A stretch of 64,000 nucleotides of DNA from Demequina sp. NBRC 110053 (lineage in GTDB: Bacteria; Actinomycetota; Actinomycetes; Actinomycetales; Demequinaceae): positions 1,550,817 through 1,614,816 of the forward strand of contig NZ_BBRJ01000002.1 in assembly GCF_002090095.1 (NCBI RefSeq), read 5' to 3'. A program made the position numbers and the translations under genes. This document shows positions 2 to 11,332 of this stretch, in pieces. The notes below the pieces were generated by a model. It was not told the DNA's origin and searched no databases. It saw nothing but the letters and a program-made list of their open reading frames with translations. Numbering within the stretch: the first letter of the stretch is position 1; every line of letters begins with the position of its first letter.

Positions 2-598
2 AAGGGCATTCCATTGCGGAGCAGTGACGGGCGCCTAGTCCTGTACCTTCAGGCAAAGTTCAACTGCCGCTTCAGCGCGATGCACGATTACCTCAAGGTC
101 GAGCGATCGTCCTTCTCGGTCTTCCCAGCTCTCGACGAAACGCCGGCAGAGCCCGTTGTGCGCTACGACTTCAATGAAGATCCTGTGGGAGACGTTCCAG
201 CTGCGCACGTGCAGTTCCACGGTTCCCACCGGGGCCTCGAAGCGGTCTTGGCGGTGTCCGGGGACTCAACTCGGCGTGGACGCCGCCGCCGCAGGGCCGC
301 GGATCGCGGTGACGCTATGCACATCCACCGCCTGCACTTTCCGGTCGGTGGCCGACGTTTCCGACCCGCACTCGAGGACGTTCTAGAGATGCTTATTGTC
401 GAGTTCGGGATCAGTCATGTCGAAGGCTCTAGGGAGGCGATAGCCGACGAACGCGAGCACTGGCGACGAATCCAACTGCGAGCGGCCGTGGCGGACGCTC
501 CCGAGGTCGCAGTGCAGGAACTAGAACGGCGTGGCTACGTTGTCGACAACTCGAAGGCGGACCGCGTCGGCAGCCCTAATCGAATGCGCGAGGCCTAG
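2..598 (+). CDS. Hypothetical protein of the integrated element, 5' end outside the window
   Basis: The reading frame is already open at the first complete codon of the window and runs to a TAG at 596-598, so the true start probably lies upstream. An internal TTG at 14 is the first possible start, but it has no visible ribosome binding site. The visible part is about 198 residues with no signal peptide or membrane segment. It has an arginine-rich stretch near the middle (GRRRRRA) and a charged C-terminal half that looks helical. I do not recognise the family. Codon use is less GC-biased in the third position than in the housekeeping genes further right, which fits a mobile-element cargo gene. 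Its neighbours are other small unrecognised genes and an attachment site at 2625-2673. Confidence 0.5.
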   Translation, partial: KGIPLRSSDGRLVLYLQAKFNCRFSAMHDYLKVERSSFSVFPALDETPAEPVVRYDFNEDPVGDVPAAHVQFHGSHRGLEAVLAVSGDSTRRGRRRRRAADRGDAMHIHRLHFPVGGRRFRPALEDVLEMLIVEFGISHVEGSREAIADEREHWRRIQLRAAVADAPEVAVQELERRGYVVDNSKADRVGSPNRMREA

Positions 599-828
599 TT
601 GCGCGCGGATAGGATCCCTAGGATCGCCTGCCGGTCTTCGCAACTCACACGCAGATCGTTGGCACTGGGCGAGGTGTAGACCTCGACTGGGCTGTCGCGG
701 CTCGCCACGTTGATTGCGAGGAATGCCGATCCTGGCCGCAACCGTTCGACATTGCGTGCATCACTCGCGAGCCCTCGGAGCCCCGCAAGTTCCGTCCACT
801 GACCGCACCGGAGCGCTACCGTCGGGTC

Positions 829-990
829 ATGGAGAAGCGTAATGGCGTGTGGACCTCGCAAACGCGCGAGGATGACGCTCGAGACATCGCGTCGCTCGCG
901 CGGCGCATCGCTGAGTCGACTGACGACCCGCAGGTCAAGGAGTGGGCCGAGAAGATTCGCAGGCTCGCGCGAGACCTCGAGGACAGTTAG
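829..990 (+). CDS. Small hypothetical protein (53 aa)
   Basis: An ATG at 829 opens a 53-residue, highly charged, probably all-helical protein (ends RRLARDLEDS). I do not recognise it. The same frame is open upstream from 622 without any ATG, GTG or TTG that I would trust, so the gene could be a remnant of a longer one that lost its start. Support for the plus strand comes from a strong hairpin followed by a T-rich stretch 14 bases after the stop (1005-1046), which works as a terminator only in this direction. An overlapping minus-strand frame (595 to about 830) also reads plausibly as protein, so the strand is not certain. Confidence 0.35.
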   Translation: MEKRNGVWTSQTREDDARDIASLARRIAESTDDPQVKEWAEKIRRLARDLEDS

Positions 991-1004
991 CCCAGTGGAC
1001 ACAC

Positions 1005-1046
1005 CACCGCCCCACCTAGCCGCAATGGTCGGGTGGGGCGGTGTTT
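1005..1046 (+). terminator. Intrinsic terminator after the 829-990 gene
   Basis: A perfect 12-bp stem (1005-1016 with 1032-1043, CACCGCCCCACC and its complement) closes a 15-base loop and is followed by TTTGTGT. The T-rich side lies on the plus strand, so it ends plus-strand transcription. Confidence 0.75.
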
Positions 1047-1336
1047 GTGTCCGACGCGCAGGAGATGGTCCGTCGCTCCGCGTTCGCGCTAGGAAAGGCG
1101 ATTCGCGCTGGGCAAGAGACCGGGACGATTCGCCGTCAAGGGTAAGAACGTGGTTACACCCAACAACTTCCGATGCCCACCGACTTCGCAAGCCACGACG
1201 AACCGATGGGCAACGAGGCCGGCATCTACCAGATGTCCGACGGCCTGGACGAGGCTGAGTTCGAGTCTGCTCTGTCCGAAGCCCGCGCCGAGGGCAACGT
1301 CTCCCGCGCCAACGTCGTGCGCGCTAGGGTTCCCTC
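1047..1336 (+). pseudogene. Possible broken small gene of the mobile element
   Basis: A GTG at 1047 opens a 32-codon frame that reads as protein (DAQEMVRRSAFALGKAIRAG) and stops at TAA 1143-1145. The same frame resumes with an ATG at 1173 and reads as an acidic helical protein (FESALSEARAEGNVSRANVV) up to about 1330. After that it loses protein character where the next gene starts. Read together these look like one gene with an in-frame stop codon. The alternative is two independent small genes. The family is not recognised; short helical proteins of this sort are common cargo on actinobacterial integrative elements. Confidence 0.3.
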
Positions 1337-1573
1337 ATGGAAACCGTTGCAGTCCGAGACATCCCCGAAGACTTCACCAAGGGCTCGTATCGCATCATTG
1401 TCGATGGAGACGAGTACCGTGTGAGCCGGTTTCAGTCGAACGTGATGCTCGACCGACTCGACACCAAGAGCCACATCGGAGAGGTCTATCCAGTAGAGGG
1501 GGGCTGGACCAGCGACGGCGCGCCAGTCGACGCGTCCCTCGAGGACGCCATCATGCGTTTTTTGACACGGTAA
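1337..1573 (+). CDS. Small hypothetical protein (78 aa)
   Basis: An ATG at 1337 opens a 78-residue acidic protein (METVAVRDIPEDFTKGSYRI at the start) ending in TAA at 1571-1573. It has alternating hydrophobic and polar residues that suggest a small beta-rich fold, and no membrane segment. The ribosome binding site is weak. A GC-rich hairpin directly after the stop (1578-1611) resembles the one after the 829-990 gene, which supports the strand. I do not recognise the family. It lies in the mobile element, facing the regulatory operon at 1622-2408 tail to tail. Confidence 0.5.
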   Translation: METVAVRDIPEDFTKGSYRIIVDGDEYRVSRFQSNVMLDRLDTKSHIGEVYPVEGGWTSDGAPVDASLEDAIMRFLTR

Positions 1574-1577
1574 CCGC

Positions 1578-1611
1578 CACCGCCCCGCCAGCCCAAGCCG
1601 ACGGGGCGGTG
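1578..1611 (+). terminator. Hairpin between convergent genes, terminator-like
   Basis: A 10-bp perfect stem (1578-1587 with 1602-1611, CACCGCCCCG and its complement) follows the stop of the 1337-1573 gene by four bases. No T-tract follows on either strand, so its strength as an intrinsic terminator is uncertain. It shares the core CACCGCCCC with the terminator at 1005-1046. Confidence 0.5.
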
Positions 1612-1621
1612 CTCATGCGTG

Positions 1622-1939
1622 TCAGGCGCCCTGCATCGCCCAGCCCTCGCGCCGGGCAGCCTCGACAACCTCCTCGAAGTCGACCTCGACAGGCGCAGCG
1701 TCGACGTCCCCTGCGACCCCCGACAACACCGCACTCGTTCCGACGCGCAGTGCTCGAGCAAGTCTCGCCACGTGGTCGGTGTTGAACGGCAGATCGCCGT
1801 TGATCATCGTGGCGAGTTGAGTGGGACGAATCTCCGCGGCCTCTCCGAGTTGCTTGATGGTGAGGCCTCGCTGATCTGCCAACTCCGAGATCGTCGCACC
1901 GATGGCGAGCGCGAGGTTCGCCCCCTCGTGCCGACTCAT
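1622..1939 (-). CDS. XRE-family helix-turn-helix regulator
   Basis: This is a 105-residue protein. Residues 10-70 form a lambda-repressor-like (XRE) DNA-binding fold: the GLTIKQLGEAAEIRPTQLA stretch is the helix-turn-helix, followed by a helix with LARALRVG that closes the domain. The C-terminal 30 residues are acidic and may form a partner or dimer contact. It is the last gene of a three-gene minus-strand operon; its ATG overlaps the stop of the gene before it by four bases (1936-1939, ATGA), so translation is probably coupled. In integrated elements such proteins usually control lysogeny, transfer or excision. That role is inferred from position. It differs clearly in sequence from the neighbouring regulator at 1936-2178. 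Confidence 0.8.
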   Translation of the reverse strand: MSRHEGANLALAIGATISELADQRGLTIKQLGEAAEIRPTQLATMINGDLPFNTDHVARLARALRVGTSAVLSGVAGDVDAAPVEVDFEEVVEAARREGWAMQGA

Positions 1940-2178
1940 GATGCCGCGGCTTCCGCTCGGTACATCACGTCACTCAGCCTCTCGCCGAGTGCGTTCGCCA
2001 GCACGCGCGCCTCATCGACCCGCATCTTGCGAGGGTGCCCGCTGAGCTTGTTGGCGACGGTTGACCACGCCATGCCGGTACGCCGTGCCAATTCAGCACG
2101 TGTCACCCCGGCCTCGTCTGCCATGCGCGCGAGCTCGCGGCTCAGAGCGAACGCGGGGTCGTAGTCCGCTGGCTTCAT
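1936..2178 (-). CDS. Small helix-turn-helix regulator, XRE type
   Basis: This is an 80-residue protein that is almost entirely one DNA-binding domain. The helix-turn-helix is at about residues 25-48 (VTRAELARRTGMAWSTVANK), followed by the fifth-helix pattern RVLANALGERLSDVM typical of the XRE fold. There is no effector domain. Its ATG at 2178 overlaps the stop of the 2175-2408 gene by four bases and its own stop overlaps the next gene by four bases, so three genes are read as one coupled unit. Small XRE proteins of this size act as Cro-like repressors or antitoxins. No toxin-like partner is recognisable, so a phage- or ICE-style switch is the more likely reading. Confidence 0.75.
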   Translation of the reverse strand: MKPADYDPAFALSRELARMADEAGVTRAELARRTGMAWSTVANKLSGHPRKMRVDEARVLANALGERLSDVMYRAEAAAS

Positions 2179-2408
2179 CGCGCATCCCCGAACGCGCGCT
2201 GCATCACATCGCCGGGCATCACGCCCCTGGCCCTGCAGGCGCGTACGAACGCGACGATGCCGATTTCCTCACCGTCCTCATCCTTGACGGGGATGCCGTA
2301 GTGCTCGAGGGCGAGCTGCCACTTCGCTTCGTCGAACACGCGCGCAACATCGCGGCCCGACTCATCTGCCTCGATGAGCACGTCAGTCGCTGTCTCGTAC
2401 TTGGTCAT
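2175..2408 (-). CDS. Small hypothetical protein, first gene of the regulatory operon
   Basis: This is a 77-residue acidic soluble protein starting at an ATG at 2408. The start is chosen because the sequence just before it carries a perfect AGGAGG ribosome binding site (minus strand, about eight bases upstream). The longer open frame upstream has no such signal and crosses the attachment region. The sequence (ends GVMPGDVMQRAFGDAR) matches no family I recognise. It leads the operon with two XRE regulators, with a four-base ATGA overlap to the next gene. Such leading small proteins are sometimes anti-repressors or recombination directionality factors; nothing in the sequence proves either. Confidence 0.65.
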   Translation of the reverse strand: MTKYETATDVLIEADESGRDVARVFDEAKWQLALEHYGIPVKDEDGEEIGIVAFVRACRARGVMPGDVMQRAFGDAR

Positions 2409-2480
2409 GATTCCTCCTGTAGTTGTCGTGCGCGGCAGCGCACCATCGGAGGCCGTGCGCCCCCGAAGATCTGAGGGCGC

Positions 2481-2511
2481 GAGTCCGCGCCAGTCCGCAA
2501 ACAGTCCGCAA
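2481..2511. repeat. Three short direct repeats near the attachment site
   Basis: The core AGTCCGC occurs at 2482-2488, 2492-2498 and 2503-2509; the last two lie in the perfect 10-mer CAGTCCGCAA (2491-2500 and 2502-2511). Spacing is about one helical turn. Such repeats 110-140 bases from a tRNA attachment core are what arm-type integrase or excisionase sites look like. The role is inferred from position only. Confidence 0.5.
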
Positions 2512-2597
2512 GAACTCCACAAACGACCACTAACAGCCAATGGGCCGATGCGCGCGGGGAATTGGTTTGGCCTGCTATTCCGCAATGGCCGTCGGTG

Positions 2598-2615
2598 GCC
2601 ACCAAGTGCCACCAA
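2598..2615. repeat. Tandem GCCACCAA repeat next to the attachment core
   Basis: GCCACCAA occurs at 2598-2605 and 2608-2615, ten bases apart, immediately before the tRNA-derived attachment core. It may be a second set of recombinase sites. Confidence 0.35.
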
Positions 2616-2624
2616 CCGCCGGTG

Positions 2625-2673
2625 CGCTCTCCTAAAGCGGGTGTCGCGCGTTCGAATCGCGCCAGGCGCACCA
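2625..2673 (+). other. tRNA-Arg(CCU) 3' half: attachment site (attR) of an integrated element
   Basis: The sequence contains an anticodon arm with loop CTCCTAA (2629-2635, anticodon CCU), a complete T arm (GCGCG TTCGAAT CGCGC), a 3' acceptor strand CAGGCGC, discriminator A and an encoded CCA at 2671-2673. The matching 5' acceptor strand and D arm are absent upstream, and the first base pair of the anticodon stem is broken. So this is not a functional tRNA gene. It is the piece duplicated when a tyrosine integrase uses the anticodon loop to 3' end of a tRNA gene. Given the orientation, the element lies to the left and the intact tRNA-Arg(CCU) should be at its other end, outside the window. Confidence 0.8.
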
Positions 2674-3025
2674 CCTCGCCCCACGTGCGGATCGCGAGCG
2701 CCAGAGCCGCCGCCCGTGAGCGCCGAGCCCCTGAGGCGTCTCGCGGGCGCCGACACCTTCATCGGCATCGGACCACGAGGCCGCTGCGTGTCCGGGTCGG
2801 TGTCCGACGGCACGCTGGAGACGGAGACTTAGGGCGTCATCATGGACGGCGCGTGCCACCCCGCCACCGGCTGCTGACGGCGTCACGCCGAGCGCTCTCG
2901 CGGCGCTACGATCTGCGTAACAGTGCGTGTCGGCTGCATAAGTCGGCGCGCACTGTCTCGTTCTCGGGGCGGGTGCGGCGGCGTGGTGGCGAGGTGCCTC
3001 AGACGCGGGCGGATACCGTAGGGGA
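2674..3025. other. Gene-free stretch at the element-chromosome junction
   Basis: About 350 bases between the attachment core and the next gene. I see no RNA gene and no convincing protein gene. A 38-codon plus-strand frame (GTG 2716 to TAG 2832) is the only open one, with no ribosome binding site. The 3' end carries the promoter of the large gene at 3026. Confidence 0.5.
3014..3019 (+). promoter_or_regulatory. -10 hexamer (TACCGT), leaderless geometry
   Basis: TACCGT ends six bases before the GTG at 3026, so transcription should begin at or next to the start codon. No ribosome binding site is present. Confidence 0.5.
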
Positions 3026-6000
3026 GTGGTGGATTACATCGGACGCGCGCTGGTCGCCGACGCCCTTCGCGAGTGGCGCGAGCAGCTCCACGACCACGCG
3101 TCCGCGTCCCCGCTGCGCGACCTCGACGGCGCGCGCGCGAGGCTGATCGACATCCGCGCGGGCCACCCATCTGGACTGGCCCAGCTGTTCGCCTCGCGCC
3201 CCACCGCGGTCTCCGCGATCCTTCGCGACCCCCAGGTGCGCGAGGCCGGTCTGCATCGCGCGCGGCTCATGCTCGACGAGGCCGAGCGCGTCCGCGCGGC
3301 GACGGGGGCGTGGACGGCGGCACTCGTGGTGGGCACGGTCGCCTGGACCGAGGGCGAGCGCCCGGTCGAGATGCCATTGCTGATGCGGGCGATCGAGCTC
3401 GAGCGGTACCGCTCGGACGACGTTCAGGTGACGCTCGGCCCGCAGACCGAGCTCAATCCGGTGTTCCATGGCGTGCTGCGCGAACGCGCCGCCGTCGCCG
3501 GTCGCGAGCTGTCGTTGCCGCAGGTCGCGGGCGGGTCCGACTTCGATCCGCGTCCGCTGTGGGACGCCGTGCGCGAGCTCACCGACCTGCTCGGCGAGGA
3601 CCTGGAGGTCAGGGACCGCCTCCTGCTGGGCGCGTTCGACGATCCCGAGCAGAGGCTGCTGGACGACCTCGACGACTGCGACCCCGTCATCGCAGGGTCG
3701 ACCGTGCTCGCCGCCGCCGCCGGAGACCACGACGCGCGTGGCCAGCTGGGCGAGCCCCTGCCGGCCTTCCCCCGCGGTGACCGCGATCCCTTCGCCGAGC
3801 GCGGGGTGGGCGACCTCGACGACGTGCAGTTCGCGGTGCTCGACCTCGTGGCGACCGGCCGCGACGTGTTCCTGCAGTGCCCCCCTGGAGCCGATGCCGT
3901 GGGCATGGCTGCGGCGCTCGCGGCCGACGGCGCGGCATCCGGTCGCACGGTCGGTGTGATCGGCGGCGCTGAAGGCACGCTCGCGGCCATCGCCTCCCGG
4001 CTTCGCGCGCTCGGCGCCGCCGACCTGGTGGTGGACGCGACGGTGCCGTCGTGGAACGCGGAGGCCCGCTCGCGCCTGCTCGAATCCATCACGATGGGCA
4101 CGCCGCCCGTCGACGATGCGGCACTGCGCGCCTCCGGCGAGACGCTGCTGCGCACGCGCGCCGAGCTGCACCGCCGGTTCGACGCCCTGCACCGCTCGCA
4201 TCGCCCATGGGGAGTCAGCGCCTTCGAGGCCGTTCAGGCGATCGTCCGCCTCACCACGTCGGAGCCAGCTCCGGCCACGGGCCTCAGGCTCAGCACTCAG
4301 GCGGGCACCGTCGTGGCTGAGCACGGGTTCGCCTCGGTCGCGTCTGCGCTGAGCGCGGTGGTGCGCCCGCCGACCGCTGACGCCGAGCCCGAGCAGGAGC
4401 GTCAGCCCGCGCCTGTCGACACTTCTGGGCACGAGCCGTGGTGGACGGCGGTTGCGGAGCCCGAGCAGGGCGCGCGGCTCGACGAGGCTCTCGCGACGCT
4501 GCTGGGGCGCGTGGTGCCCAAGCTGCGCGCCGAGGCCGCGATCGCCGCGCACGAGACGGGCGTGGATGAGGCCGGCTCGATGCTCACGTGGATCGACCAG
4601 GTGCACATGTTCGAGGACCTGCGCGAGATCCTCGAGATCTTCTCACCCGCCGTGTTCCATCGTTCGCTGCATGACCTCGTCGCCGCCACCGCGCCCCACG
4701 GCTCGCCGCGGCACGTGGACCTGCCACGTCGCGAGCGCCGGGCGCTGATGCGCCGTGCGGTCGAGCTGCTGCGGCCGGGGCGCGGCAAGGAGTCGCTGCA
4801 CGCTGACCTGGTGCGCGCGCACGAGCTGGCGCTGCGCTGGCGCTCCCACTGCTCCGCGGGCGGCTGGCCCGCCGTCCCCGACGACTACGACATCTTCACG
4901 GAGCGCGTCGCGGAGGCGACGGCCCTGTGGGAGACCCTGCGCGTGCCCGTCGAGACCGTGGGCGAGGAGGCCGAGGTCGCGTCGCAGCCGTGGGATGACA
5001 TGGTGAACCTCCTCGACCGGCTCGGCCAGGGGCTGCCGGGCATGCTCGAGTTCGCCGGAGCCGAGCCCCTCGAGATCGATGTCGAGGCGACGGGGTTCTC
5101 GCCGCTCATCGACGATCTCCGGGGACGGGACGCCTCCGACGCGCAGGTCCGCCGCGACCTCGAGTTCGCGTGGTGGGCGGCGGCGTTCGACGCGATCGTC
5201 ACCGCTGATCCCTCGCTGACCGAGTATGGCGCTCTCGGCGACGCTGTCGAGCGGTTCCGCGGTGCCGATGCGTCCTTCGCCGAGTCTCGCATCGGTCCTC
5301 TCATGCGCGCCGCCGCGGAGCGACGGCGCACGGCGATCGCTCGGCACCCCGACGTGGCACGCGACCTGTTCGCCGCGCTGGTCGAGGGCGGGAACGCATC
5401 CATCAAGGAGCTGTGGCGTGACTATGGGGCGCTGACCTCCGCGCTTCGGCCCGTGCTCGTGTCGAAGGCAGAGCAGGTGTCCCGACTCGCGCCGCCCACG
5501 CGCGTGTTCGACGTGGTCGTGCTGGTGGCGAGCGAGTCCCTCGCACTCGCGGAGCTGGTGCCGGCTCTCGCCCGAGCCAAGCAGGTGGTGGTCGTGGGCG
5601 ACGCCCACGCCGCGACGCGCTCGGCCGTCGCCGCGCTCGCGTCGATGCTCCCTCGCGTCACTCTCCACGCCACCCCGCAGCCACGCGATGTCCGTGTCAC
5701 CGCCGTTCTCTCCCGCGCGGCGTACGGGCGCAGTCTCGAGGCCCTCCCCGCCGCCCAGGACGCAGGCGCCTTCGCAGTCCACCACATCGACGGCGTGGGT
5801 GCTCCCGTCGCGGGCTCCTCGGTGGTCGAGTCCACGCGCGCCGAGGTGGCTGCCGTGGTGGAGCACGTCGAGCGCGCGCACGCCTCGCTGCCGCGCCGCT
5901 CGCTCCAGGTGATCGCCGGCAACGAGCTGCACGCCTCGCGCATTCGCGACGCGCTCGCCGAGCGTTCCGCTCGACTCGCTGCGACCGTCCCTGTCGCCGC

Positions 6001-7267
6001 GCTGGGAGACGTCGCCGGACCAGTGGTGGATGAGGCAGTGCTCGCCCTGGGCTTCGCGCGAGACGCACGCGGCACCGCGCCAGAGCTGCTGGGGGTGCTG
6101 TCCGAGCCCTGGGGCCACGAGGCGTTGGTGCAGGCGCTCGTTGCGACGCGCGAACGGCTGGAGGTGTTCACCGCGCTGGACCCCACGCATCTGCCGAGCG
6201 ACTCACCTGAGGGCGCGGGCGTCGACGATCTGCGAGACCTCCTGCATGCCGCGTCCGAGCGTGCGATCCCGCCCGAGCGGCCCGAGCCCGCGCCCAGCGA
6301 CTGGCTGCTCGCCGACGTGGCGCAGCGGCTGCGTCTGCAGGGCTACGGCGTGCACGTGCGCTACGGAGCCGGACCCGATGCGGTGCCGATGGTCGTGGGC
6401 GGCAAGCGCGAGCGCGGCTATCGCGTGGCAGTCGTCACCGACGAGGCCGCGCCCGCGGGGTCCGCATCGCTTCGCGACCGCATGCGGTGGCAGCGCGCCT
6501 CGCTGGAGGCCCTCGGCTGGACCGTCGTCCCCCTGTGGACCATCGACGTCTTCATGGACCCTGATGCCGCCGCGGCACAGGTGGTCGAGGTGCTTGAGCA
6601 CACCGACCCGAGCGGCGTGCAGGACGCGCTGGAGATCGAGCTTCCGCCGGTTGCGCAGGCGGCGCCGGTCGACGACGACTCGGCTCCCGAGGCCGACGGT
6701 GACGCCGATGTCGAGGTGACGACTGCGCCGGCCCCCGAGGTCGACGCTGACGCCGACCTCGAGGCCGCCGATACGTCTGCTCCTGGGGCCGACGGCGACA
6801 GCGACCGCCCCGGCGCATCGGCTCTCCAGGATGACCGTGACCTCGACGACGACCCGGCCACAGCCTCGCCCACATCGTCAGACGACGAGGGCGACGAGGA
6901 CGAGGCGGGCGGCGACGACGGCCCGGCCGCCGCATCGGCCCCCGACGCCGATGACGACCGTGAGGGCGACGCGGCGAGCGCATCGGCGGCCGAGGTGCCG
7001 GGCATGCTCGACCTCGATGGCCTTGGCGACGACGGCGCCGCAGGCGACGAGGGCGACGATCCCGACCCCGACCCCGAGCGTGATCCCGAGCCCGAGTCGA
7101 GCGCTGGCCCGGCTCCTGTGCCGCCGACGCTGCCTGTCACCTCACGCGGCGCCGACCGCCCGCTGATCCCCACGCGCGCGCGAGAGGACCTCGACGAGAG
7201 CTGGGGCGGCGCCGACCATGACAGCCGGGACGACGAGATTCTCCGGGAGCGGCCACCGCACTGGTGA
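3026..7267 (+). CDS. Very large degenerate SF1 helicase-like protein with nuclease-like domain and acidic tail
   Basis: A 1413-residue soluble protein. The middle resembles actinobacterial superfamily 1 helicases fused to an MTES_1575-type restriction-endonuclease-like domain. The key motifs are damaged: the P-loop position reads PPGADAVGM (residues 286-294) with no GK[ST], and the Walker B/DExx position reads VASE (834-837) before the recognisable QVVVVGD (853-859). The nuclease-like domain (about 1093-1190, WLLADVAQRL to LWTIDVFMDP) keeps the fold pattern, but where active relatives have an Asp in the second strand and Glu-x-Asp in the third it reads VPMVVGG and VVTDEA. Residues 1217-1380 are low-complexity, rich in Asp, Glu and Ala. 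I infer a structural or regulatory DNA-associated role rather than an active helicase. The start at the first of two tandem GTG codons is supported by a leaderless -10 at 3014-3019. Confidence 0.75.
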   Translation: MVDYIGRALVADALREWREQLHDHASASPLRDLDGARARLIDIRAGHPSGLAQLFASRPTAVSAILRDPQVREAGLHRARLMLDEAERVRAATGAWTAALVVGTVAWTEGERPVEMPLLMRAIELERYRSDDVQVTLGPQTELNPVFHGVLRERAAVAGRELSLPQVAGGSDFDPRPLWDAVRELTDLLGEDLEVRDRLLLGAFDDPEQRLLDDLDDCDPVIAGSTVLAAAAGDHDARGQLGEPLPAFPRGDRDPFAERGVGDLDDVQFAVLDLVATGRDVFLQCPPGADAVGMAAALAADGAASGRTVGVIGGAEGTLAAIASRLRALGAADLVVDATVPSWNAEARSRLLESITMGTPPVDDAALRASGETLLRTRAELHRRFDALHRSHRPWGVSAFEAVQAIVRLTTSEPAPATGLRLSTQAGTVVAEHGFASVASALSAVVRPPTADAEPEQERQPAPVDTSGHEPWWTAVAEPEQGARLDEALATLLGRVVPKLRAEAAIAAHETGVDEAGSMLTWIDQVHMFEDLREILEIFSPAVFHRSLHDLVAATAPHGSPRHVDLPRRERRALMRRAVELLRPGRGKESLHADLVRAHELALRWRSHCSAGGWPAVPDDYDIFTERVAEATALWETLRVPVETVGEEAEVASQPWDDMVNLLDRLGQGLPGMLEFAGAEPLEIDVEATGFSPLIDDLRGRDASDAQVRRDLEFAWWAAAFDAIVTADPSLTEYGALGDAVERFRGADASFAESRIGPLMRAAAERRRTAIARHPDVARDLFAALVEGGNASIKELWRDYGALTSALRPVLVSKAEQVSRLAPPTRVFDVVVLVASESLALAELVPALARAKQVVVVGDAHAATRSAVAALASMLPRVTLHATPQPRDVRVTAVLSRAAYGRSLEALPAAQDAGAFAVHHIDGVGAPVAGSSVVESTRAEVAAVVEHVERAHASLPRRSLQVIAGNELHASRIRDALAERSARLAATVPVAALGDVAGPVVDEAVLALGFARDARGTAPELLGVLSEPWGHEALVQALVATRERLEVFTALDPTHLPSDSPEGAGVDDLRDLLHAASERAIPPERPEPAPSDWLLADVAQRLRLQGYGVHVRYGAGPDAVPMVVGGKRERGYRVAVVTDEAAPAGSASLRDRMRWQRASLEALGWTVVPLWTIDVFMDPDAAAAQVVEVLEHTDPSGVQDALEIELPPVAQAAPVDDDSAPEADGDADVEVTTAPAPEVDADADLEAADTSAPGADGDSDRPGASALQDDRDLDDDPATASPTSSDDEGDEDEAGGDDGPAAASAPDADDDREGDAASASAAEVPGMLDLDGLGDDGAAGDEGDDPDPDPERDPEPESSAGPAPVPPTLPVTSRGADRPLIPTRAREDLDESWGGADHDSRDDEILRERPPHW

Positions 7268-7494: not shown

Positions 7495-8121
7495 CTACGC
7501 CGTCAGAGAGGTGAATCCCTCCGGCGTGATGACGGCGTGGACGCCCACGTCGTGCGCCTCGCGCGGCAGCGGCAGGTCGTCGGGCCCGCGGAACTCCGCG
7601 GCGAAGGCGAGCGCGACGATCGGCACGCGCGGATCCAGGCCCTCGAGAGCGCGGTCGTACCAGCCTCCGCCCTGCCCGAGCCGGGTTCCGCGCGAGTCGA
7701 CGGCGAGCGCCGGCACGACCACGACGTCGGCTTCGCCGATCGCGTCGGAGCACAGGAACTCGCCCGACGGCTCGGGCGGGCGGCCAGGGGCGCGCTCGAT
7801 GAGGTCCTCGGCGCCCTGGTAGGGGGACCAGCCGCGCTGGAGGCCGTCGCCCAGGCGCGGGATCAGCACGCGCACGCCCCGCTCGTGGAGCGCCTCGATG
7901 AGCGGCAGGGTCCCGGGCTCGTGGGCGCGCGAGGCGTACACGGACACGCATGTGGCCCCCGCGATCGCAGGCATGGCGAGCACGTGGTCGCGCAGCAGCA
8001 GGGCGAGCTCCTCGCGCCGACGCTCCGAGCGGTGCAGGCGGGCCTTGCGGATCGACGTTCGCAGCTGCGCCTTCGCGTCCTCCGGAGCCGGTGCGCGGGT
8101 GCCTTGCTGTGACGTCGACAT
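7495..8121 (-). CDS. 5-formyltetrahydrofolate cyclo-ligase
   Basis: A 208-residue cytoplasmic enzyme that converts 5-formyl-THF to 5,10-methenyl-THF with ATP, returning a storage and inhibitory folate to the one-carbon pool. The family signatures are visible: the N-terminal basic helix LRTSIRKARLHRS, and the nucleotide- and substrate-binding loop VVVPALAVDSRGTRLGQGGGWYDRAL near residues 140-165, where GxGxGxYDR is read here as GQGGGWYDR. The ATG at 8121 is chosen because GGGTGG lies four bases upstream; ATGs at 8130 and 8133 would extend it by a few residues. It is the first gene of the pair with fmdB, divergent from the MoeA-like gene at 8239. Confidence 0.9.
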   Translation of the reverse strand: MSTSQQGTRAPAPEDAKAQLRTSIRKARLHRSERRREELALLLRDHVLAMPAIAGATCVSVYASRAHEPGTLPLIEALHERGVRVLIPRLGDGLQRGWSPYQGAEDLIERAPGRPPEPSGEFLCSDAIGEADVVVVPALAVDSRGTRLGQGGGWYDRALEGLDPRVPIVALAFAAEFRGPDDLPLPREAHDVGVHAVITPEGFTSLTA

Positions 8122-8238
8122 GCCACCCATCATGTCAGTCATGTGCGTCCGGCACCTGACGCGCGCCGCACGACGTCGCGGTTGGCTGCTGGGCCGGCGT
8201 TGTTTGCCCAGCCCTGTGCGCCACGGGACAATGGCGTC

Positions 8239-9465
8239 ATGACCGCTCGCAGCCTGGCCGACCACCGCGATGCCGTGGCAGCGGCGCTGAGGCCGAGCCT
8301 CGTCCTCGACGTCCTGCTGGCCGACGCGGTGGGCGCGACGCTCGCCGAGGACCTCGTCGCTCCTTCCGACCTGCCGCCCACGCCAGTCGCCGAGCGCGAC
8401 GGCTACGCGGTGGTCGCGGCTGACACGGCGACCGCCAGCGCCGATGCGCCCGTGTCGCTGGCCGTCTCCCATGACGTCAGCTTCGACGTCCGCGCGCCGC
8501 GCAGGCATGTGCGGGGGGCCGCGGCGCGCGTCCCCTCGGGTGCTGCCGTCCCCACGGGAGCCGATGCGGTGGTGGCCCTGTCGGACACCGACATGGGTGT
8601 GGCGAAGGTGGGGATAGCGCGGCCCGTCCAGCGCGGCGAGGGTGTGCGCGAGGCCGGGTTCGACGCGCGCGGAGGCACCGTACTGGTTGCCGCCGGCACC
8701 AGGCTGGGCCCGCGTCAGGTGGCAGCTGCGGCCGCGCTCGGCCGCGCACGTGTGCGCGTTCGCCCGGTGCCGCGCGTCGTCGTGCTGGCCGTGGGCGACG
8801 AGCTGATCGAGCCGGGCACCTCTCGACCTGGCGGCGGGGTCGCGGAGGCCACCACCCACATGATCGCCGCCCTGGTCCAGGAGGCCGGTGCCAAGCCGTA
8901 TCGCGTGGGGGCGGTGCCGGATGACGCGCTGCAGCTGCGCGGCGCGATCGAGGACCAGCTGGTGCGCGCTGACATGGTCATCACGACTGGCGGGCTGTCG
9001 GACGGACCGCAGGACACCGTCGCGGACGTGCTCGCCCGCATGGGCCGCTTCACCGCCGTCGACCTGCAGCTGCGCCCCGGGCGGCGGCACGGGCTGGGCG
9101 TCATCGATGCCGGTGACCGGGAGGTGCCGGTCGTGGCGCTGCCGGGCTCCCCCGCCGCTGCCGCCATGGGGTTCGAGGCCTACGTGCGGCGCGCGGTGCG
9201 CGTGCTGTGCGGTCACCCCAACGTCGAGCGGGCTCCCTTCGCGGCGCGTGCGCGCCGCCGTTGGATCGCGGCGCCTGGGGTCGTGACGGGCATGCCGGTG
9301 GTCGTCGAACGCGATGCTGACGGGATGCTGTCCGTGACGCCCCTCGGAGCCGAGAACCTCTCGCTCGCTGACCTCGCCAGGGCCGATGCGGTGGTCTGGT
9401 CCGGCCCCGATGCGCACGTCTTCGACGTCGGCGACACGGTGTCGTGCACCGTGTGGGGGGGCTAG
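8239..9465 (+). CDS. MoeA/gephyrin-like protein, possibly the cell-division protein Glp
   Basis: A 408-residue protein with the full MoeA domain order (MoeA_N, MoCF-binding domain, C-terminal beta domain). True MoeA inserts molybdate into molybdopterin. Here several conserved active-site segments differ: the first motif reads PVAERDGYAV (residues 49-58) instead of NSAMDGYA, the GxD segment reads GFD (140-142) instead of GED, the molybdopterin loop reads GGLSDGPQD (251-259) instead of GGVSxGxxD, and LPGNP is LPGSP (301-305). No other molybdenum cofactor gene is nearby. In corynebacteria a MoeA-like protein, Glp, encoded near a membrane partner GlpR, binds FtsZ; the position next to cyclo-ligase, acetyltransferase and a membrane protein fits this. 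The start follows a GACAAT -10 by six bases. Confidence 0.85.
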   Translation: MTARSLADHRDAVAAALRPSLVLDVLLADAVGATLAEDLVAPSDLPPTPVAERDGYAVVAADTATASADAPVSLAVSHDVSFDVRAPRRHVRGAAARVPSGAAVPTGADAVVALSDTDMGVAKVGIARPVQRGEGVREAGFDARGGTVLVAAGTRLGPRQVAAAAALGRARVRVRPVPRVVVLAVGDELIEPGTSRPGGGVAEATTHMIAALVQEAGAKPYRVGAVPDDALQLRGAIEDQLVRADMVITTGGLSDGPQDTVADVLARMGRFTAVDLQLRPGRRHGLGVIDAGDREVPVVALPGSPAAAAMGFEAYVRRAVRVLCGHPNVERAPFAARARRRWIAAPGVVTGMPVVVERDADGMLSVTPLGAENLSLADLARADAVVWSGPDAHVFDVGDTVSCTVWGG

Positions 9466-9468
9466 CCG

Positions 9469-10044
9469 GTGAAGCCCGTCGAGCTTCTCGCCGGCCCGAT
9501 CACTTTGCGTGCCCTCGCGCGAGCGGACGAGACCGCGTGGATGGCGGTGCGCCGCCGGCACCGCGCCTGGCTCGCGCCGTGGGAGGCCGCGTCGCCCCCC
9601 GAGCGCGCCGAGAAGACCGTCACGTTCCCGCAGCTCGTGCGACGGGAGCGCGCCCAGTGGCGAGAGGAGTCGGCGTATCCCTTCATCGTGGAGCACGACG
9701 GCGAGCTCGTGGGTCGCGTGAGCGTGTCCGGGATCCGCTGGGGAGCGGAGTGCGGCGGCTCGATCGGCTACTGGATCGCGCAGTCGCACGCCGGGCGGGG
9801 GATCACGCCGCGCGCCGTGGCGCTCGCGACCGAGTTCGCTTTCTCGCGGGGGCTCCACCGCCTCGAGATAGCAGTGCGGCCCGAGAACGTCGCGAGCCTG
9901 CGCGTGGCGCACAAGCTGGGCTTCCGCGAGGAGGGTCTGCGCCCGTCGTACCTGTACATCGACGGGGCGTGGCGCGACCACACGATCTTCGCTCTCACTC
10001 AAGGTGAGCCGCGAACCGGCCGATATTGGTCGGATGGCTCCTGA
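9469..10044 (+). CDS. GNAT acetyltransferase, RimJ/RimL type
   Basis: A 191-residue GNAT-fold enzyme. RimJ/RimL relatives acetylate protein N-termini, classically ribosomal proteins S5 and L12, using acetyl-CoA. Visible features are the N-terminal substrate segment ITLRALARADETAW, the beta-4 strand IGYWIAQSHAGRGI with the Q/RxxGxG-type CoA loop read as SHAGRGI, and the C-terminal ENVASLRVAHKLGFREEG motif diagnostic of this branch. The GTG start at 9469 lies three bases after the stop of the MoeA-like gene, so both are in one transcript. The actual protein substrate cannot be told from the sequence. Confidence 0.9.
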   Translation: MKPVELLAGPITLRALARADETAWMAVRRRHRAWLAPWEAASPPERAEKTVTFPQLVRRERAQWREESAYPFIVEHDGELVGRVSVSGIRWGAECGGSIGYWIAQSHAGRGITPRAVALATEFAFSRGLHRLEIAVRPENVASLRVAHKLGFREEGLRPSYLYIDGAWRDHTIFALTQGEPRTGRYWSDGS

Positions 10045-10084
10045 CACGCCGCGCGCCATCCGCGGCTGAGCAGTCCCCGAGCCG

Positions 10085-10090
10085 TACCGT
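10085..10090 (+). promoter_or_regulatory. -10 hexamer (TACCGT) of the membrane-protein gene
   Basis: TACCGT ends six bases before the ATG at 10097, the spacing expected for a leaderless transcript. The gene may therefore have its own promoter in addition to read-through from 8239. Confidence 0.5.
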
Positions 10091-10096
10091 CGTGGC

Positions 10097-11092
10097 ATGG
10101 TTCCCGTTGGACTTCTCGCGATCATCGCTCTGGGTCTCGTGGTCGCGTACGTCCTTCCGCAGCGTGTCCGCGAACGCGGCGAGTACGCGCTGGTCCGCGT
10201 GGATGACCGGTACTCGTCGGACATGCGGGTGGTGAGGTCGTCGGCGCAGCGCGTCGGGCGTGCCGCCGCGCGCCCCTCCACCGACTCGGGGGAGATGCCG
10301 CTGCTGCGCACGGGTGCTGCGCGGGCCGATGCTCGCGTCGAGCACATGTCGCGCCCCGCCACGCCCCTGGATCGCGCTGCGGTGCACGCACGCCGGGAGC
10401 AGTACGCGATGCGGCGCGACCGCGCGCGAGTGGGCGCTGCCCGGGCTGCGCAGGCGCGCCGCCGCGGGCTCGTCGCGCTCGCGGCGACGGTGATGACGCT
10501 GATCGCGTGGGGCCTCGTGGCCTTCGCAGGGGCGTCGGCGGTCCTGGGTGCGGTCGCGACGTCCGTCCTGGTAGGGGTCGTCACGTCGAGCACGCGCGCC
10601 GCGTCGGCACATCGTCGAGCCGACGAGGAGATGGTCGCCGTGTCGCGCGAGGTCGAGGCCGCCGCGACCGCGACGCAGGCGCTGCGGGTGGTGTCGCGCG
10701 AGCGCGCAGCCGGTCACGAGGCCGAGCCGTCGGACGTCGCGACGCAGGCCATCCGTATCGTCACCGCGGAGGACCTCGCACCCCTGGCCGTGCCCGCCGC
10801 GATCCCCGCTCCCGAGCTTCCCGCAGTGGAGGAGGATGCCGGAGCGCCGTGGGTGCCCCAGGGCGTTCCCGCTCCCGCATACACGCTCAAGTCCACGGTG
10901 CGTCAGCGCGAGGCGCGGCCCATCTCGGACGAGGACTACGACGCCGCCGCAGCCCGCGCGGCCCGATGGGGCGACCTGCGTGCCAACGACGCTCCCGAGC
11001 GCTCGACCGCGGCGTATCAGCTCGACGAGGCCGCGCCGACCACCGCCGCGCTCGACGCGATCCTCGCGCGGCGCAAGCGCGCGTCAGCGTAG
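10097..11092 (+). CDS. Membrane protein with three predicted helices, candidate GlpR
   Basis: A 331-residue protein of no family I can name with certainty. Residues 3-21 (VPVGLLAIIALGLVVAYVLP) are a membrane segment. A basic Arg-rich region follows, then two further hydrophobic segments at about 124-145 and 147-166, and a long acidic, Pro/Ala-rich C-terminal part of about 165 residues that should be cytoplasmic and flexible. It is the last gene after cyclo-ligase (divergent), MoeA-like and acetyltransferase genes, an order shared by many actinobacteria. By position it could be GlpR, the membrane receptor of the FtsZ-binding MoeA-like Glp; this is an inference from context. The last 22 bases of the gene, including the stop, are repeated 34 bases downstream. 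Confidence 0.7.
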   Translation: MVPVGLLAIIALGLVVAYVLPQRVRERGEYALVRVDDRYSSDMRVVRSSAQRVGRAAARPSTDSGEMPLLRTGAARADARVEHMSRPATPLDRAAVHARREQYAMRRDRARVGAARAAQARRRGLVALAATVMTLIAWGLVAFAGASAVLGAVATSVLVGVVTSSTRAASAHRRADEEMVAVSREVEAAATATQALRVVSRERAAGHEAEPSDVATQAIRIVTAEDLAPLAVPAAIPAPELPAVEEDAGAPWVPQGVPAPAYTLKSTVRQREARPISDEDYDAAAARAARWGDLRANDAPERSTAAYQLDEAAPTTAALDAILARRKRASA

Positions 11093-11126
11093 AGCAGCAG
11101 CGGGGCGCAAGCGCGCGTCAGCGTAG
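11071..11126 (+). repeat. Tandem duplication across the stop of the 10097-11092 gene
   Basis: A 22-base sequence starting GCGCAAGCGCGCG and ending in TAG is present at 11071-11092, where TAG is the gene's stop, and again at 11105-11126. The period is 34. It looks like a small tandem duplication of the gene's 3' end. Confidence 0.85.
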
Positions 11127-11258: not shown

Positions 11259-11332
11259 TTCCTGCGGGCGATCGGGCCGCCGTCCCCGCGGGAACCTGCG
11301 AAGATGCACTTCCTGCGGGCGATCGGGCCGCC
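11259..11332 (+). repeat. Second short direct repeat, period 51
   Basis: A 23-base sequence beginning TTCCTGCGGGCGATC occurs at 11259-11281 and 11310-11332 in the same intergenic region as the 11071-11126 repeat. Read on the plus strand it gives a repeated peptide FLRAIGPP, but there is no ribosome binding site, and I treat it as non-coding. The whole gap 11093-11373 has no gene that I can support. Confidence 0.8.

Follow-up and report, generated by a model that had tools for sequence, protein, structure and literature searches.

Does a MoeA-like gene that sits beside the gene of a membrane protein still serve molybdenum cofactor (Moco) synthesis, or has it been turned into a scaffold for cell division? 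This question is raised by a locus of Demequina sp. NBRC 110053 (genome G000; 2.5 Mb, 99.75% complete), and the window analysed here is the whole 64,000-nucleotide stretch around it (C2:1550817-1614816), with positions counted from its first letter. On the + strand, a 408-residue MoeA-fold protein (8239-9465), a GNAT acetyltransferase (9469-10044) and a 331-residue membrane protein (10097-11092) are encoded in succession, and the original prediction took the first and third of these for a Glp/GlpR division module. Glp and GlpR were described in 2023, with glp co-localised with glpr in Actinobacteria, mostly within class Actinomycetes (Martinez et al., PMC10522489; statements on this paper and on PMC8748795 follow the sections consulted). 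With a probability of roughly 0.72, we regard the three genes as the Demequina form of this actinobacterial module. Glp would be a MoeA duplicate that is no longer required in Moco synthesis and that acts as a dimeric scaffold. Tethered by GlpR to the membrane, and most probably at the division septum, it would link GlpR with the early divisome. Membrane docking by GlpR and a septal role are carried over to Demequina by analogy with work on Corynebacterium glutamicum and Streptomyces.

The position and MoeA-like identity of the 408-residue protein hold, as its MoeA_N, MoCF_biosynth and MoeA_C domains all exceed their Pfam cut-offs. Its top NCBIfam model is NF045515 Glp_gephyrin (315 bits), followed by the actinobacterial MoeA model (253 bits). 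Phylogeny is more informative. A FastTree analysis of 92 rows included 48 synteny-labelled ones (MoeA-family proteins encoded near a GNAT gene); 43 of these form one group with C. glutamicum Glp (8bve) and the window protein, with a support of 0.973; three unlabelled rows also fall in this main Glp group, and the Demequina MoeA paralogues are placed elsewhere. In an IQ-TREE analysis (mixture model, quick method) of 46 rows drawn from those 92, 30 Glp rows lie on one side (SH-aLRT, the Shimodaira-Hasegawa-like approximate likelihood ratio test, 94, just below the 95 that earns a star), and the window protein is found within a group of 11 Demequina Glps (99, starred). The approximately unbiased (AU) test rejects a single clade of Demequina Glp and MoeA (p 0.0086), the tested group having been chosen after inspection of the first tree. 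Because both trees split Glp from MoeA and the joint clade is rejected, the duplication predates the genus Demequina. These trees support the window protein as a Glp orthologue, monophyletic with C. glutamicum Glp and apart from the MoeA of its own genome. Sorting of the Demequina paralogues by NF045515 score was also tried and rejected (MoeA 406 bits, Glp 315 bits), and it is the tree that separates them.

The neighbourhood of the gene agrees with this placement. The order cyclo-ligase, glp, GNAT gene, glpR is identical in all 15 Demequina Glp loci first examined, so that the conserved glp-glpR context is present in 15/15 and the gene order is beyond chance. The conserved upstream neighbour, a 5-formyltetrahydrofolate cyclo-ligase (7495-8121, - strand; PF01812, 113 bits; synteny), belongs to the context outside the module, and the RimJ-like GNAT acetyltransferase (PF13302, 74.3 bits; synteny) is the conserved middle gene of the cluster. 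In G021 and G035, two of the 15, a galU-like gene lies between cyclo-ligase and glp, as it does at many loci from other families. It also occurs in G019, and is absent from the window locus (8122-8238) and from 13/15 Demequina Glp loci.

If Glp were a molybdotransferase, a MoeA-type gene would be expected only where the Moco pathway occurs, and Glp departs from this expectation. Among 44 Demequina genomes, 38 have MoaA together with MoaC, and canonical MoeA occurs in exactly those 38; by hand count, Glp is present in 42 (in pieces in G203) and GlpR in all 44. Six genomes lack both MoaA and MoaC (G018, G022, G208, G005, G013 and G029). In G018, G022, G208 (99% complete) and G005 (85%), the sole MoeA-family gene is Glp, adjoining GlpR. 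The clean Moco-less set, defined as having no MoaA, MoaC, MoeA or strong PF00384 match, comprises five genomes, of which these four retain Glp beside GlpR. G029 was dropped from it, with a 203-bit PF00384 match on contig C168 in a genome that is 88% complete; this match (G029:C168:340-1650) is of the molybdoenzyme type in a genome without MoaA, MoaC or MoeA, and an assembly gap is the probable cause. A weaker PF00384 match, mostly of 80-109 bits, is found in nearly all genomes, is the sole such match in the clean five, and is presumably NuoG. The lack of a strong PF00384 match does not by itself mark Moco loss, because five MoaA-bearing genomes (G004, G007, G017, G023 and G028) are also limited to the weaker match. 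PF00174 matches were found in 0/44 genomes, further molybdoenzyme families not having been searched. Retention of Glp in four Moco-less genomes argues against a cofactor role and supports, from gene content, a non-Moco role in Demequina; these four are exceptions relative to Megrian et al. 2025 (PMC11733289). Class-wide, MoaA is lacking in 25/148 genomes, and two of the MoaA-less genomes (G068 and G163, each 98% complete) exceed the Glp cut-off, each with a second MoeA-family match.

The active site bears on the same question. The original prediction named four altered segments, PVAERDGYAV, GFD, GGLSDGPQD and LPGSP, and all four are indeed present and unlike the corresponding segments of the genome's second MoeA (PPFDNSAMDGYAL, GED, GGVSVG and LPGNP). 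By alignment, PVAERDGYAV (residues 49-58; 8383-8412, +) stands where the Demequina MoeA rows shown have FDNSAMDGYA, with the aspartate equivalent to D59 of Escherichia coli retained; GGLSDGPQD (residues 251-259; 8989-9015, +) retains GG, S and the final D; and LPGSP (residues 301-305; 9139-9153, +) has S where E. coli MoeA has N300. In addition, the domain IV segments PxGRxQF and GSH of MoeA are replaced. The alignment comprises 14 Demequina Glp rows; omitted from it were L071, which equals L145, L073, which equals L144, and L075, which shares 97% identity with L071. Numbered as in E. coli, D59, E188, D228, GG and S254 persist in the window protein and in these 14 rows, and the 14 mostly retain R137 (11), D142 (9) and D259 (11). 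T100, retained in 14/14 Demequina MoeA rows, is altered in 14/14 Glp rows (S in 12, R in 2); N300, likewise N in 14/14 MoeA rows, is altered in 13/14 (S, R, H, K or P); and position 279 is altered in Demequina Glp, being Q in 14/14 Demequina MoeAs and K in E. coli. Erosion elsewhere takes a different form. Six rows of family f22, termed Corynebacterium-like here since C. glutamicum Glp groups with them, have lost D228, S254 and D259, and five of them the second G of GG, while T100 and N300 are retained; the 26 other syntenic Glp rows retain nearly all active-site residues. Erosion at different sites in the two lineages fits release from enzymatic constraint on more than one occasion.

The possibility has to be weighed that the protein is still active as a molybdotransferase, be it as a second MoeA or in a moonlighting capacity. 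It would account for the presence in the window protein of D59, R137, D142, E188, D228, D259, the GG-S residues and both prolines of LPGSP. However, it is at odds with the four Demequina genomes that keep Glp without MoaA, MoaC, MoeA or a strong PF00384 match, with the alteration of T100 and N300 in Glp rows of a genus whose MoeAs keep both, and with the replaced domain IV segments, and we judge it improbable. Far less credible still is that glp is a decaying paralogue carried along with its neighbours. The rapid divergence between species (the window protein is 39-88% identical to 12 other Demequina Glps) and the clean loss of glp from two genomes might be read in that way. However, Glp is under purifying selection: the ratio of nonsynonymous to synonymous substitution rates (dN/dS, by the NG86 method) is 0.04-0.15 in three Glp pairs, below the 0.19-0.30 of MoeA in the same three species pairs, and the gene persists in 42/44 genomes.

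The partner protein, two genes on, is a membrane protein as predicted. By Kyte-Doolittle hydropathy it has a single hydrophobic helix at its N-terminus and a hydrophobic stretch of 45 residues (residues 123-167; 10463-10597, +) that fits a two-helix hairpin, giving three predicted transmembrane helices and two disordered regions, the cytoplasmic side of which is assumed. Its sole NCBIfam match is NF050099 SepX_GlpR_2 (23.3 bits, E 5e-5). A hidden Markov model (HMM) built from 26 non-Demequina loci, using the membrane protein beside the GNAT gene, finds the Demequina GlpRs with E values of 4.3e-16 to 1.7e-24 and the window protein with 1.6e-17, the best open reading frame (ORF) outside the GlpR position having E 0.044 (7294 ORFs searched); profile-profile comparison (hhalign) gives a probability of 98.9. 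Among 48 loci with a GNAT match (hand count), a simple neighbour rule gave a GlpR candidate in 44; the HMM identified GlpR in L114, L135 and L143, reassigned it in L097 and found none in L096. The GlpR-like proteins share the N-terminal helix, the hairpin, a juxtamembrane DR[FY]SxxMRV[VL] motif and, within the tail, a motif of proline and tyrosine. The juxtamembrane motif of the window GlpR is DRYSSDMRVV (10205-10234, +), resembling the DRFSxAMRVL that many GlpR-like proteins in this class carry; the tail motif, found by pattern comparison across GlpR tails, is WVPQGVPAPAYTLK (10850-10891, +); and a C-terminal motif ALDAILARR (11048-11074, +) has counterparts in the C-termini of L092, L093, L094, L098, L100 and L102. 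Taken together, these similarities support the membrane protein as a GlpR/SepX homologue. Phylogeny of MoeA versus Glp had been proposed with the original prediction as a check, and it agrees with synteny and with the profile homology of the membrane protein on the orthology of both Glp and GlpR.

The predicted long acidic cytoplasmic tail stands in part, being mildly acidic (net charge -6, isoelectric point (pI) 5.0), with its cytoplasmic location assumed. The loop before the hairpin, the first intrinsically disordered region (IDR1), has a charge of +13 and a pI of 11.8; both segments were defined by us. In C. glutamicum GlpR, IDR1 is acidic and IDR2 basic (PMC10522489), an arrangement that the window GlpR does not share. 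IDR1 is basic in 15/15 Demequina GlpRs (+8 to +13) and in 20/26 other rows. Thus, 35/41 GlpR rows have a basic IDR1, opposite to C. glutamicum, leaving L111, L112 and the four tested Corynebacterium-like rows as exceptions. Because tail charges vary (-9 to +10 in Demequina, -3 to +4 in the four Corynebacterium-like rows tested), IDR1 is the only consistent charge difference.

Several observations weigh against the reading of this locus as a Glp/GlpR module, and they concern the profiles, the pairing of the two proteins and the contacts with FtsZ. In addition to the retained catalytic residues listed above, the window Glp lies below the curated NF045515 cut-off (315 vs 475 bits), a cut-off exceeded in 9/59 genomes, none of them Demequina, and is outscored on this model by the true MoeA of the genome (406 vs 315 bits), so that Glp-model scores are not decisive alone. 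Five of the 48 synteny-labelled rows (L110-L112, L131 and L134) branch near but outside the main Glp group. The window GlpR likewise lies below the NF050099 cut-off (23.3 vs 150 bits). In the reverse search, a Demequina-only GlpR profile reaches just L098, L102, L094 and L130 outside Demequina at E below 0.001 (4e-21 to 1e-8), with few further rows at about 0.002-0.05, and no Corynebacterium-like GlpR is convincingly reached by it; given this one-way reach, the tie to C. glutamicum-type GlpR goes via intermediate families and synteny. Furthermore, GlpR occurs without Glp in 2/44 Demequina genomes. In G013 (94% complete), the cyclo-ligase-GNAT-glpR locus is intact (L157, G013:C152:44000-56000, at 4574-7080), the open frames of cyclo-ligase and GNAT lie only 67 bases apart, and the genome as a whole yields no match to Glp or MoeA. 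In G019 (94% complete, 4% contamination), whose GlpR scores lowest among the full-length ones, the expected glp site directly before the GNAT gene is taken by a nucleotidyltransferase gene that most resembles those of the Demequina loci L067 and L084 (L158, G019:C129:1-8000, at 330-3553). The pair is therefore not strictly obligate, and both genomes deviate from the report that glpr and glp co-occur whenever present (Martinez et al. 2023, PMC10522489).

The FtsZ contacts are the last of these points. In C. glutamicum, the FtsZ tail rests on a domain IV hairpin of Glp via M361, Y369 and L370, among others, and the published Glp signature, derived from a Corynebacteriales alignment, consists of this FtsZ loop and two proline-rich hinges (PMC10522489). 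Neither M361 (0/15) nor Y369 (0/15) is present in Demequina Glps; in the window protein, where residues 356-365 (9304-9333, +) align with the hairpin, they are replaced by E and L. Hinge 1 is incomplete (RPSLVL), PxP being found in some Demequina Glps only, and hinge 2 is RPVPR, a form (xPxPR) that several Demequina MoeAs have as well. Because the C. glutamicum contact residues are not retained, direct binding of the FtsZ C-terminus by Demequina Glp is the least certain part of the proposal, and the original prediction finds no sequence support on this point.

The same residues bring in a neighbouring explanation, according to which Glp and GlpR do form a membrane scaffold, but the FtsZ tail is not bound by Glp in Demequina, and septal recruitment, if any, would proceed via GlpR (through DynB or DivIVA, for example) or via another partner. 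This is possible, at perhaps a third of the weight we give to the main reading. Besides the loss of the loop residues, it would agree with their distribution in the 26 labelled rows beyond Demequina and the Corynebacterium-like family (M361 in 0, Y369 in 6), with the presence of GlpR in 44/44 genomes, two of them without Glp, and with the binding of DynB by Streptomyces SepX (PMC8748795). However, the Demequina FtsZ tail, ALDVPEFLR, retains the L, V, P and F contacted in C. glutamicum, and thus LDVPxF, though SepF binds that tail as well (PMC10522489), and the groove of Glp could bind through other residues. Moreover, Y369 is present in the nearest relatives of Demequina, L098, L130 and the unlabelled L100 and L102, so that its absence from Demequina may be a recent loss. 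Two further observations favour the main reading: a match to the DivIVA family is located some 2 kb away from ftsZ, and a structure model of the Glp monomer (seven-row alignment; mean predicted local distance difference test (pLDDT) 78; predicted template modelling score (pTM) 0.68), made to probe the open hinge, has 8bvf and 8bve as its top Foldseek matches in the PDB. The TM-scores of this model are 0.59-0.61 to Glp and 0.63-0.66 to E. coli MoeA entries, and its whole-chain root-mean-square deviation is about 9-12 Å to nearly all full-length entries listed, Glp and MoeA alike, so that it does not tell an open hinge of the Glp type from a MoeA-like one.

The tail of GlpR suggests a further, more doubtful possibility. 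A pattern of W, 3-9 residues and P[TASV]Y is found in 15/15 Demequina and 21/26 other rows, against a shuffle expectation of 0.1 and 0.2 rows, and in 5/1368 background ORFs; it is found in 0/5 Corynebacterium-like tails, all five of which have DDEDPxF instead, a motif present in no other row. The patterns were picked after the sequences had been read, and the shuffle expectations are not a prior test; L130 was omitted (the contig ends there) and six HMM-found rows were added, such that the 26 other rows are not the 26 used to train the HMM. The M361-bearing Glps belong to the same five Corynebacterium-like loci. One may thus imagine a Glp-GlpR interface in two versions. In most of the class, Demequina included, a WxP...PxPxY tail (W..P....PxP[TA]YxxK) would dock into Glp, and Glp would originally have served as a GlpR-bound membrane scaffold, independent of Moco and of the FtsZ tail. 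In the Corynebacterium-like lineage, replacement by DDEDPxF, the PxF of which echoes the VPxF of the FtsZ tail, would coincide with the gain of M361; this lineage would have invented tight FtsZ binding, and GlpR and FtsZ would then compete for one groove. In C. glutamicum, deletion of GlpR IDR2 partly mimics Glp loss, and removal of the Glp loop abolishes GlpR binding (PMC10522489). However, Y369 occurs in 6/26 rows outside both lineages, which leaves M361 as the one residue of the two that is exclusive to the Corynebacterium-like family. These patterns might reasonably be read as a switch between docking motifs through co-evolution, which would be a single evolutionary event, since DDEDPxF rests on one family; as that family contributes five rows, the match of PxF may also be due to chance. 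We doubt the two-version interface as a whole.

With regard to the remainder of the genome, canonical MoeA is encoded at C2:274084, 1.28 Mb from the window glp, adjoining MoaC (273629), with MoaA (268981) and a MogA-like gene (267516) about 5-6 kb from MoeA. The absence of other Moco genes from the window, noted in the original prediction, holds for MoaA, MoaC and MoeA/MogA-type domains, MoaD, MoaE and MobA not having been searched; it is not telling alone, because the genome has Moco genes elsewhere. At this locus, a single-protein scan of genome contigs returned only four relatives: two from Demequina, namely Demequina sp. NBRC 110056 with 88% identity and D. aestuarii with 72%, and two Lokiarchaeia MoeA loci. 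Two repeats were seen by eye: the final 22 bases of glpR with its stop codon (11071-11092) recur at 11105-11126, and another, some 23 bases long, has its copies at 11259 and 11310 (region 11259-11332).

Overall, the homology-only name moeA is misleading for this gene, as had been argued, and should be glp. The further suggestion that the locus newly extends the system does not survive, as its distribution in Actinomycetes is published (PMC10522489) and NCBIfam models exist for both proteins; among the papers listed by literature searches on Glp/GlpR, SepX, moeA and division, none concerns Demequina, as judged by titles and abstracts. What the locus contributes is a different vantage point. Most of what is established on how Glp works comes from a single experimental system, C. 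glutamicum, and Moco-less Demequina species that keep Glp are a natural experiment. As the published FtsZ-loop signature fails to carry over, whether FtsZ binding is original or was added later becomes testable. In addition, the NCBIfam cut-offs miss the Demequina branch of both Glp and GlpR.

Comparison with known systems places the module as follows. C. glutamicum Glp-GlpR (Cgl0883/Cgl0885; PDB 8bve, 8bvf; PMC10522489) is one of the closest: its Glp falls in the same clade as Demequina Glp, its GlpR also has three predicted helices and two disordered regions, its MoeA active site is altered, and the cyclo-ligase, GNAT and glpR neighbours are common to Demequina and four Corynebacterium-like loci. 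Unlike C. glutamicum Glp, Demequina Glp lacks the M361/Y369 loop signature; the active site is eroded elsewhere, with D228, S254 and D259 gone from the six Corynebacterium-like rows, five of which also lack the second G of GG, and with D228, GG and S254 kept in Demequina; and the window GlpR has a reversed charge order in its disordered regions and a tail motif unlike those of the five Corynebacterium-like rows. Streptomyces venezuelae SepX (Bush et al. 2022, PMC8748795) resembles the window GlpR, as predicted here, in its three helices, two cytoplasmic disordered regions and divisome role, and NCBIfam NF050099 unites SepX and GlpR. Compared by published description, however, sequence similarity is low (homologues share less than 10% identical residues), and the partner tested for SepX is DynB rather than Glp (PMC8748795). 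Canonical MoeA, from E. coli or at C2:274084 of the same genome, shares the fold, domain order and several catalytic residues with the window Glp, but forms a separate clade (AU p 0.0086), and the presence of Glp is not tied to the Moco pathway. Eukaryotic gephyrin offers an analogy, as a MoeA scaffold that organises a membrane receptor and a tubulin-like cytoskeleton (PMC10522489); however, it was repurposed independently (PMC11733289), and the window Glp has no fused MogA domain. By sequence comparison, then, the Demequina module is orthologous to the known one and alike in layout, yet it departs from the FtsZ-loop signature and has a different GlpR tail; this branch keeps the module even after Moco loss, and its parts may dock differently.

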